Source of the DNA: Desulfomonilaceae bacterium
GTDB taxonomy: Bacteria > Desulfobacterota > Desulfomonilia > Desulfomonilales > Desulfomonilaceae
Direction of reading: 5' to 3'
Length of the DNA: 52,468 nt
Assembly: GCA_031082285.1 (NCBI GenBank)
Contig: JAVHLK010000020.1
Span: 12,027-64,494 of the forward strand
This document shows positions 38,264 to 41,245 of the stretch, piece after piece (positions within the stretch are counted from its first letter, which is position 1; every line of letters begins with the position of its first letter). Below the pieces are notes generated by a model, which saw only the letters and a program-made list of their open reading frames with translations, was not told the origin of the DNA and made no database searches. The position numbers and the translations under genes were made by a program.

Positions 38264-39016
38264 ATGAGACTGGCCGGGAGATCGGCTGTTGTGACCGGTA
38301 GCAGCAGAGGGGTAGGAAGTAATGTGGCGCTGGCGTATGCCGCGGAAGGCGCGGATGTCCTGATCAATTACAGTTCCAGCGAGGGGCCCGCTCTGGAACT
38401 GGTGGAACGGATCCGGTCCATGGGGAGAAAATCGACGGCCGTTAAGGCGGACGTGGCTTCCAAGGCCGATGTGGAGAACATGATGGCCACGGCGAAAGAA
38501 ACCTTCGGGCGTTTGGACATTGTGGTGAACAATGCCGGCTTCACGCGGCCCGCGATGTTGCACAAAATGTCGGAGGGAGACTGGGACGCGGTGGTCGACG
38601 CGCACTTGAAAGGCCCGTTTCTCTGCGTTCAGGCCGCGTTCCCGTATTTCAAGGAGCAGAATTACGGAAAGGTCATCAACGTCAGTTCGGTTGCAGGCCT
38701 TGTGGGCACCGTGGGCCAGGCGAACTACTCGGCCGCAAAGGGCGGAATATTGAGTTTCACCAAAAGCGTGGCCCGGGAGCTCGCGCGGTACAACGTCTGT
38801 GCCAACGTGATATCTCTGGGAATCGTTGAGACGGATATGACCGAGAAGATCCGGAGCGACGAAAAACTTCGCGATATTTACATGAACCGTATTCTGCTCA
38901 AGAAGTTTGCCGCAGCACAAGACATCACCCCCGCGTTTGTTTTTCTCGCTTCCGCAGAAGCCGACTACATCACCGGTCAGGTGCTGTGTGTGGACGGCGG
39001 GTACGGAATGATCTGA
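38264..39016 (+). CDS. Short-chain dehydrogenase/reductase, FabG-like
   Basis: This NAD(P)-dependent oxidoreductase (250 aa) has a Rossmann fold. The cofactor loop TGSSRGVGSNVALAYA, the NNAG motif (IVVNNAGFTRPAM), the catalytic serine (VINVSSVAGL) and the YxxxK pair (NYSAAKGGILSF) are all present, followed by FLASAEADYITGQVLCVDGGYG. The pattern fits 3-oxoacyl-ACP or 3-hydroxyacyl-CoA reductases; the substrate is not decided by sequence. AAGGAGG sits seven bases before the ATG. It is a single gene behind a terminator; fabG as a symbol would be too specific. Confidence 0.9.
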   Translation: MRLAGRSAVVTGSSRGVGSNVALAYAAEGADVLINYSSSEGPALELVERIRSMGRKSTAVKADVASKADVENMMATAKETFGRLDIVVNNAGFTRPAMLHKMSEGDWDAVVDAHLKGPFLCVQAAFPYFKEQNYGKVINVSSVAGLVGTVGQANYSAAKGGILSFTKSVARELARYNVCANVISLGIVETDMTEKIRSDEKLRDIYMNRILLKKFAAAQDITPAFVFLASAEADYITGQVLCVDGGYGMI

Positions 39017-39146
39017 GACGCGGCATGGACAGAGGCAGGAACGGTTCGGTGCCGCGCACGACTTGGGGATTGACTCAGGTCGACATTCCGCGGGTGAAGG
39101 CTCCGAGTCTCTCAAGAAAGTGTCGTGGAATGCGCCAAAAAAAAAC

Positions 39147-39175
39147 TTGACTTGCCCCAAGGCTTTTGTTAGAAA
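39147..39175 (+). promoter_or_regulatory. Candidate promoter 1 upstream of the proline-rich pair
   Basis: TTGACT (39147-39152), 17 bases, TAGAAA (39170-39175), preceded by a run of nine A. It lies about 300 bases before the first proline-rich gene. Confidence 0.45.
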
Positions 39176-39346
39176 TCGTTGACACTAATAACCTCCTGAA
39201 TGGACTGTCAGATCCGTGACGGACGCCGTGAGCGTCGGGCCGTAGATTGTTTCTCGGCGCAGGAGGGGATGTGAGATTTGAGTGTGTGACCGTTCCTGAA
39301 AGGGGCGGAAGAGGCGGCCAAGGAACCGTCAAGCAAAAAAAATAGC

Positions 39347-39375
39347 TTGACATTCCACGGTTGATTTGATACCAA
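39347..39375 (+). promoter_or_regulatory. Candidate promoter 2 upstream of the proline-rich pair
   Basis: TTGACA (39347-39352), 17 bases, TACCAA (39370-39375), also preceded by an A-run. Its -35 box is exactly 200 bases after that of candidate 1. Apart from these boxes and the hairpins below, the 39017-39474 gap has no gene. Confidence 0.4.
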
Positions 39376-39379
39376 AAAT

Positions 39380-39422
39380 ACATTCCGGAATATATCGGAT
39401 CATCATCCGGGAATGTTTTTTT
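39380..39422 (+). terminator. Terminator-like hairpin in the leader of the proline-rich pair
   Basis: ACATTCCGG (39380-39388) pairs with CCGGGAATGT (39407-39416) with one bulged C, followed by a T-run up to 39422. It lies between the two candidate promoters and the gene, so it may attenuate transcription from promoter 1 or, if promoter 2 is used, form the 5' end of the message. Confidence 0.5.
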
Positions 39423-39428
39423 ACGGGT

Positions 39429-39448
39429 CTCCCGAAGATGTTCGGGAG
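39429..39448 (+). other. Perfect 8-bp hairpin just before a ribosome binding site
   Basis: CTCCCGAA (39429-39436) pairs with TTCGGGAG (39441-39448) around GATG. It ends 11 bases before the AAAGGAGG of the first proline-rich gene, so it could protect the message or control translation. No T-run follows. Confidence 0.55.
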
Positions 39449-39474
39449 GAACTGTTGAAAGGAGGATTGAGGGT

Positions 39475-39972
39475 ATGGTTAAACGTTTGTTTCTTCTGAG
39501 CCTTTTGGTTCTCGCTCTGTGCGGTGCTAGCGTGGCGGTATCAGTTGCAGGTGGTCCTGCCGGTGCCCCGGCTTTCATGCCGCCTCCTCCAGGTCCCCCG
39601 CCTATCTGCGGACCTGCTCAAACCGCGTTCTCATCGAAGAAGGAAGTCATCACCCCGGTGCCTGCTCAGCTGCGCAGAGTTCGGGTGGTCGCTCCTTATT
39701 TGGCTGGTGTTGCGTGGCCGCGCACGCCTATCGTGTTCAATATCAACCCCCAGACATATCCCGATTCCATTGGGACCGGTCGGTATGAGTGGTTGGTGCC
39801 GGTGGTGGAGATTCAGCACGAGCATTTCGACACGTTTCCGGATCCTTGCTGCAAGGACCACAAGGTTCCCCGCTGCGTGTACGTGAAGGCCAACTATGTG
39901 AAATGCAAACCTGCGTGCGGACCCGTTCCGATGGCTCCGCCTCCCCCGATGCCCGCCAAGGTGAAGAAGTAG
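39475..39972 (+). CDS. Proline-rich secreted protein, unknown (first of pair)
   Basis: I do not recognise this 165-residue protein. Residues 1-25 are a signal peptide (MVKRLFLLSLLVLALCGASV, cleavage near AVSVAG). The mature protein begins with a proline/glycine run (FMPPPPGPPPICGP), has a beta-like middle (RTPIVFNINPQTYPDSIG, then RYEWLVPVVEIQHEHFDTF), five further cysteines (PDPCCKDHKVPRC, KCKPACGP) and a proline-rich, lysine-ended tail. The paired cysteines suggest disulfides in the envelope. AAAGGAGG precedes the ATG, and the leader-to-start region is nearly identical to that of the next gene, with which it forms an operon. Confidence 0.7.
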   Translation: MVKRLFLLSLLVLALCGASVAVSVAGGPAGAPAFMPPPPGPPPICGPAQTAFSSKKEVITPVPAQLRRVRVVAPYLAGVAWPRTPIVFNINPQTYPDSIGTGRYEWLVPVVEIQHEHFDTFPDPCCKDHKVPRCVYVKANYVKCKPACGPVPMAPPPPMPAKVKK

Positions 39973-40057
39973 GCTGCCGCGCCTTGTGAGAGGGTGGTTG
40001 AGAAAAAGAAGTAGAGTTCCTCAGATATAATGAGTTTGTCGAAAGGAGGATGAGGGT

Positions 40058-40432
40058 ATGGTTAAAAAGCTAGGAATTCTCGGATTCATCCTGGTCGTCG
40101 TGGCTGCGGCGGGCATGGTATGGGCCGGGACAAATATGGGTGCAATTCCCGCTCCCACGCCGATGGTGATGCCGGCTTCCGCTCCCGCTTGTGGACCGCT
40201 TGGTTGTGCTCCCATGCCGGCCCCGGTAGTTGCTCCGCCAAAGGTGAAAATGGCCCCCAAGAAACTGACCACCTCCATTCAGGTCAATATGCAGTATCCT
40301 GCGCCCACGCCGCCCCCCATGCTGTGCGGCCCCGGCGACGGCTGTAATCCGCCTCCCATTCCCGTGGCGGTTCCTATGTGGAGATTCATCGTTCCTTGGC
40401 CCCCCTTCGTTTACTATCTGCCTGTCGACTAA
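40058..40432 (+). CDS. Proline-rich secreted protein, unknown (second of pair)
   Basis: The 124-residue protein has a signal peptide (MVKKLGILGFILVVVAAAGM, cleavage near VWAG), then a proline/alanine/cysteine-rich body (ASAPACGPLGCAPMPAPVVAP; MLCGPGDGCNPPPIPV) with four cysteines and an aromatic C-terminus (MWRFIVPWPPFVYYLPVD). The CGP and PPP motifs and the shared start MVK(R/K)L link it to the previous protein, but the middle sections do not align. The GAAAGGAGGATGAGGGT upstream is almost the same as for the first gene. A perfect TATAAT lies at 40026-40031 without a good -35 box. A terminator follows. Confidence 0.7.
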   Translation: MVKKLGILGFILVVVAAAGMVWAGTNMGAIPAPTPMVMPASAPACGPLGCAPMPAPVVAPPKVKMAPKKLTTSIQVNMQYPAPTPPPMLCGPGDGCNPPPIPVAVPMWRFIVPWPPFVYYLPVD

Positions 40433-40459
40433 CAGGACGTTAGGTGCGAATATTATGAA

Positions 40460-40481
40460 GCCCCCATCCGGGGGCTTTTTT
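40460..40481 (+). terminator. Intrinsic terminator of the proline-rich pair
   Basis: GCCCCC (40460-40465) pairs with GGGGGC (40470-40475) around ATCC, and T residues run to 40481. The stem extends by two A-T pairs. Confidence 0.88.
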
Positions 40482-40507: not shown

Positions 40508-41245
40508 ATGATCGTTATCCCTGCGATTGATCTGAAAGACGGCAAGTGTGTGCGCCTGAGGCAAGGCAGGATGGATTCCTCGACGATTTTCAACGACGAT
40601 CCCGCCGCGCAGGCAAGGCAATGGCAAGACTACGGCGCGTCGCGCATCCATGTCGTGGATCTCAACGGATCCATTGACGGGCGACCGGTGAATCTGCAAT
40701 GTATCAAAGACATCGTCGAGGCCGTCAACGTTCCGGTCCAGTTGGGCGGCGGCATCAGGGACAAGCAAACCGTGAGGTCGTACCTGGAAATCGGCGTCGG
40801 CGTGGTGATTCTCGGCACCGCGGCCGTCAAGGAACCTGAGAAAACCGTTGAGATATTGACGGAATTTCCCGGCCGCATCGCGATCGGCATAGACGCGCAA
40901 TCCGGGAACGTTGCGGTACAAGGATGGACCGAATCCACCGATATCAAAGCTTCCCGGCTCGCGGCGCGCTTCGAGGCCGCCGGTCCCGTCGCGTTCATCT
41001 ACACCGACATTGAAAGAGACGGCATGATGACGGGGCCGAATATTCACGCCACCAGAGACTTTGCCTCGGGAACCTCCGTCCCCGTAATCCTCTCGGGGGG
41101 CGTGTCCGCCTACGCGGACATAATTGCCGCGCTCCCCCTTGAAAAGAGCGGAGTGATTGGCATTATAACCGGTAGGGCACTCTACGAGGGAGCCATCGAC
41201 CTGCGAGAAGCCATACGAATAGCGGAAAACAGAGATGCTCGCTAA
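40508..41245 (+). CDS. hisA: Phosphoribosylformimino-AICAR ribotide isomerase
   Basis: HisA catalyses the Amadori-type isomerisation in histidine synthesis. The 245-aa protein is a beta/alpha-barrel with two phosphate-binding half-motifs. The first catalytic aspartate is D8 ([14 protein letters not shown]); the second lies in [39 protein letters not shown] and [13 protein letters not shown] are typical. The ATG lies 27 bases after a terminator and has no clear ribosome site or promoter of its own. It overlaps hisF by 11 bases. Confidence 0.95.

Follow-up and report, generated by a model that had tools for sequence, protein, structure and literature searches.

A Shared Start Block Marks Seven Genes for Small, Putatively Exported Proteins in Desulfomonilaceae

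Genes A and B, two neighboring genes on a 52,468-nucleotide stretch of Desulfomonilaceae DNA (the window, by whose positions features are given), are real genes, and on sequence grounds they are members of a family-restricted set of seven genes (A–G), each of which begins with a common ribosome-binding and start block. We give middling credence, neither strong nor slight, to the reading that A–G are Desulfomonilaceae-specific, co-regulated, Sec-exported structural proteins of an envelope layer; a structural role is suggested by their composition, single-copy conservation, and taxon range.

The A–B Locus

Gene A encodes a protein of 165 amino acids and gene B one of 124 amino acids, with a gap of 85 bases between the two genes. 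The initial annotation had these coordinates right, as well as the common MVK(R/K)L start. The two genes and their start blocks are as follows.

39457..39483, + strand: Shine–Dalgarno (SD)/start block of A, GAAAGGAGGATTGAGGGTATGGTTAAA, exceeding the block of B by one base
39475..39972, + strand: gene A; signal peptide at about residues 1–25 (by inspection); mature part with 21% Pro and 6 Cys
40041..40066, + strand: SD/start block of B, GAAAGGAGGATGAGGGTATGGTTAAA
40058..40432, + strand: gene B; signal peptide at about residues 1–23 (by inspection); near-invariant C-terminus PPPIPVAVPMW(K/R)FIVPWPPFVYYLPV

The pair is flanked upstream by a short-chain dehydrogenase (SDR) gene (38264–39016) and downstream by hisA (40508–41245), which is followed by hisF and mutS2 (Pfam) and by an ORF that we take to be dnaG-like. 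Both genes are under purifying selection, with a median dN/dS of 0.128 for A (66 of 136 genome pairs, those with dS 0.05–1.5, the remaining pairs being excluded) and 0.157 for B (93 of 136 pairs, the remainder again excluded).

The family sample comprises 18 genomes, the 5.6 Mb host genome (G000) and 17 others. B is found in all 18 and A in 17; in the 18th (G009), the contig stops beside B. Both genes are single-copy per genome. Whether the pair is always adjacent, a question raised by the initial annotation, can be answered in the affirmative for the A loci of 16 relatives wherever contigs allow. Among these loci, 15 show the SDR gene upstream and 15 show hisA downstream, and the two exceptions (L011 and L015) are contig ends. 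One of the relatives, G005, is Desulfomonile tiedjei DSM 6799 (its contig 2 opens with 4000 bases that match NC_018026.1 at 100% identity), which also has A–B between the SDR gene and hisA.

Single-sequence searches of 99 genomes gave zero matches to B outside the family. Two weak extra-family matches to A in the same genomes, one in G055 (E 1.2e-4, inside an 891-aa frame) and one in G090 (E 6.3e-4, with an in-frame stop), were judged to be composition-driven. A profile of A matched 2 of 247 genomes of the phylum, both of them members of Desulfomonilaceae, and no plasmid record was matched by A in a tblastn search. In the literature that was searched, no paper was recognized as treating these genes, which is a statement about that search and not a claim that they are absent from print.

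A Start Block Common to Seven Dispersed Genes

A and B have a ribosome-binding/start block of 26–27 bases in common. When the 26-base block was searched for with up to 3 mismatches, further copies were found in the own genome, and family-wide searches led to the same dispersed sites. The pattern AAAGGAGG-N4..8-GGTATGGT has exactly 7 matches in the own genome and none in a reversed control, against a chance expectation of about 0.01 (hand arithmetic from 16 fixed bases, 5 spacings, 2 strands, and 5.6 Mb); the block, of which the initial annotation had noted the like upstream bases in A and B, is therefore far above chance. The same annotation had described a duplicated start region: the sharing by A and B stands, but the region is wider than the pair and extends to seven genes of the genome.

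Six of the 18 family genomes together contain 37 pattern matches (G000, 7; G003, 7; G004, 5; G005, 5; G006, 7; G008, 6) and none in the reversed control. By position, all 37 are starts of the seven protein families A–G. In the own genome, each of the seven blocks starts a small protein with an export signal (A–G), and six of these proteins contain Cys. Among 297 genomes of the phylum, the two family members have 12 matches, and 6 of the 295 non-family genomes have a single match each, on unrelated ORFs (reversed control, 1); outside Desulfomonilaceae the block thus occurs at about chance level. Two of these six extra-family matches (L155, L156) start export-like proteins with a CISCH motif, which are cytochrome-like.

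The block could in principle be an ordinary strong SD sequence joined to a common signal-peptide start and kept after duplication, the functions of the proteins being unrelated. The block is indeed partly consensus SD, and the mature parts are without detectable relation to one another (see below), but across 11 genera, and in seven genes that are unlike one another, the bases of its spacer and codons are conserved, a pattern that duplication by itself would not maintain, and its near-chance level outside the family also argues against this explanation, which we consider unlikely.

Families C to G

C and D form a second tandem pair carrying the start block, adjoining genes that we take to encode a MoxR-like ATPase and a VWA-like protein (five genomes; L052:5096-7218, L088, L091, L093, L099). 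E is a short relative of the D N-terminus and is adjoined by an ORF that is presumably REP-associated-transposase-like (L053:2184-2603, − strand; G000:C281); a mobile element may thus have moved or spread E. F sits between what we assume to be a LeuC-like gene and a GMP-synthase-like gene. G is a protein of 206–224 amino acids that is very rich in Cys and Pro (L140:2023-2640, − strand; L141, L142, L143). Its CPPP/CGPP runs are long and its C-terminal W is conserved; C likewise ends in W, homology between the two being undetected.

Among the 18 family genomes, 16 have F, 12 have D at full length, and 5 have partial matches of the E type; C was seen, outside any systematic search, in 13, and G is present in 4 of the 6 genomes of the pattern count (G000, G003–G006, G008). 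The 99-genome searches gave zero matches to D and F outside the family. C–G are like A–B in the SD/start block and the signal-peptide start, and C, D, and F also in a hairpin shortly before the SD, whereas they differ from A–B in their neighbor genes and in mature parts that are not detectably homologous.

Predicted Export and Composition of the Mature Proteins

The signal peptides that the initial annotation had given to A and B were recognized on inspection as well and are of the Sec type, with a positive start, a hydrophobic core, and small residues at −3/−1 as expected for signal peptidase I. The cleavage site, also by inspection, is of the type S-x-A↓GG in many A proteins and V-W-A↓xT in most B proteins. 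Lipoproteins, which would have a lipobox with a conserved Cys at +1, were considered and rejected. Many of the A proteins show LALC at residue 16, with L at −1, and the Cys is replaced by M or T in those of G001 and G010; the leader of B is without Cys. The signal peptides point to export of A and B and, together with composition, to a location in the envelope or at the surface, and the envelope component envisaged by the initial annotation is plausible on these grounds.

The mature parts of all seven proteins contain 11–27% Pro, and six contain 3.9–8.3% Cys, E having none; the corresponding averages over 29 long ORFs of the window are 4.7% for Pro and 1.2% for Cys. Mature B has 27% Pro and 4 Cys, and its aromatic/proline tail is almost invariant across relatives. 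The Pro and Cys richness and the CGP/PPP motifs of A and B were correctly described at the outset, and the view of both proteins as unfamiliar has likewise held: A–F gave nothing above cut-off in curated families (Pfam, NCBIfam), A, B, and G gave no match in a PHROGs search, and profiles of A and F had 0 sequence matches in the PDB. AlphaFold models of A and F have mean pLDDT values of 41.6 and 40.8, too poor for a fold search and in line with either disorder or shallow alignments. A reading of A–G for multihaem cytochrome c found no CXXCH motif.

Profile comparison aligns the signal peptides only, those of A with B, C, and F, and that of C with D. When the mature parts alone were compared (A, B, C, D, F, and G; 15 pairs), the pairs A–B, A–C, A–G, B–C, and B–G exceeded the best of 30 column-shuffled controls, at a probability of at most 5.5% and E-values of about 0.007–0.1, and homology is not claimed from them. 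The mature parts of the set are accordingly treated as not detectably related at the level of these profiles.

Chlamydiae have cysteine-rich, cross-linked proteins of the outer envelope. A and B, which may be likened to these, would share with them small size, export, Cys richness, and a capacity to stiffen the envelope, and differ in the lack of a Pfam match, the variable number of Cys, the dominance of proline, and the phylum. Across relatives, the Cys count is 2–7 in A and 3–6 in B. Such poor conservation argues against both an obligate metal site and a fixed pattern of disulfides, and because the number varies and E has no Cys at all, the data do not call for a layer built by disulfides.

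The same residues bear on a second explanation, in which A–G are secreted metal- or thiol-binding proteins whose Cys bind soft metals or buffer extracellular sulfide or redox stress, which would be useful to a sulfate reducer. The Cys content of 4–8% in six of the seven mature parts fits this function, as do the CC and CGP motifs in the sequences of the set, and one MAG that carries the genes is sulfate-reducing and oxygen-exposed according to its description (PMC11451228). However, a metal site should be conserved more strictly than is seen here, where most Cys are unconserved (the A protein of G010 keeps 2) and E does without them, and there is no Pfam match over the cut-off; metal or thiol binding is rather improbable as the function of the set.

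Promoters, Leader RNA, and Terminator

The initial annotation had remarked on dense control elements and a terminator, and conservation in the relatives bears this out for P1, P2, H2, and the start block, with a hairpin at 40457–40478 after B. The elements other than the start blocks are listed here.

39140..39175, + strand: distal promoter P1; A-tract, TTGACT at 39147–39152, TAGAAA-type −10 near 39170
39335..39375, + strand: proximal promoter P2; A-tract, TTGACA at 39347–39352, 17-nt spacer, TACCAA at 39370–39375
39381..39422, + strand: leader hairpin H1; located where the transcript is predicted to begin, with a U-run after it, stabilizer-/attenuator-like
39428..39449, + strand: leader hairpin H2; separated from the SD downstream by about 8 nt
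40024..40032, + strand: GATATAATG element between A and B; GATATA(A/G)TG in 17/17 genomes, the first G differing in one
40457..40478, + strand: terminator-like hairpin after B; 9 pairs and a T-run

The A-rich stretch and TTGACT of P1 lie at −296 to −329 from the ATG of A in 17 of 17 genomes, and the TTGACA of P2 and the start block are present in all 17 aligned A leaders. A consensus promoter scan flagged neither promoter of A; both emerged from the 17-genome footprint. Transcription probably starts near 39382. In the A–B intergenic regions of the 17 genomes, no conserved −35 accompanies GATATAATG, which may be an element of the RNA or the −10 of a promoter.

Covariation in the leader hairpins was assessed on the 15 distinct rows of the 17 aligned leaders. 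H2 covaries by this measure: in 4 of its 7 pairs both bases change while still pairing, a result reached by 0 of 500 shuffles. H1 is near-invariant, and since 7 of its 9 pairs never vary, covariation is uninformative for it. The whole A leader, folded as a single sequence, is mildly better than shuffles (z −1.63); an Rfam search gave no gathering-score match in the leader and two sub-threshold matches, both outside it. The leaders of C, D, and F have conserved TTGAC-type promoters, and each has a hairpin just ahead of the SD. These hairpins differ in sequence and show few both-side changes (0, 2, and 1 pairs, respectively).

Tandem A-tract promoters and strong SDs suggest high expression. Codon adaptation is low for A (0.643) and B (0.613), on a measure that is powerless here (ribosomal-protein genes 0.719, background 0.711).

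A Possible Envelope Layer

For A–G as proteins of an envelope layer, the following course may be proposed. Each gene of the set would carry the start block (SD, spacer, and ATG-GTT-AAR) on its own conserved leader, and the shared block would keep translation of A–G in step, leading to balanced synthesis. A-tract promoters of the sigma-70 type, in tandem for A, would drive strong transcription, and the leader hairpins may stabilize the mRNA or keep the SD open. After removal of the signal peptide by signal peptidase I, the Pro-rich and possibly disordered mature chains would assemble into a lineage-specific layer, either periplasmic or on the cell surface, in which the invariant aromatic/proline tail of B may serve as a docking or assembly motif. 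Given the low pLDDT of the A and F models, no fold supports this assembly. C, D, E, and G are absent from the matches of some family genomes, which counts against an envelope layer, and the low codon adaptation of A and B was also weighed against it, by a measure without power.

A panel of secreted proteins made behind one leader, acting as effectors between bacteria or as bacteriocin-like peptides, would account for unrelated mature parts that have their start and signal region in common, but A–B have no immunity-like gene beside them (their flanks are SDR and hisA), evolve slowly under purifying selection with invariant stretches instead of diversifying, and are single-copy per genome, which makes this explanation very improbable indeed.

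The envelope layer can also be tied to a particular structure. The collar of Desulfomonile, described in one source as a cell-wall invagination that is the hallmark of the genus (PMC7773648), is an envelope feature specific to its lineage, and A–B are present in that genus (D. tiedjei). It is conceivable, and highly doubtful, that A–G build the collar and are made in fixed proportions, with a single trans-acting regulator, either RNA or an RNA-binding protein, reading the block. Taxon range alone fits; the collar shares only its taxon with A–G, and nothing beyond taxonomy ties the two directly.

Significance

Unrelated, putatively exported proteins that have one start block and occur in one family, including its type species, are candidates for a lineage-specific surface structure. 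A bioreactor metatranscriptome that covers BA410, a Desulfomonilaceae MAG carrying A–B (locus L043, JARLHM010000040.1), has been published (PMC11451228). If the link to the collar were true, a morphological puzzle would be opened to genetics, and the shared block would offer a test case for the translational coordination of dispersed genes.
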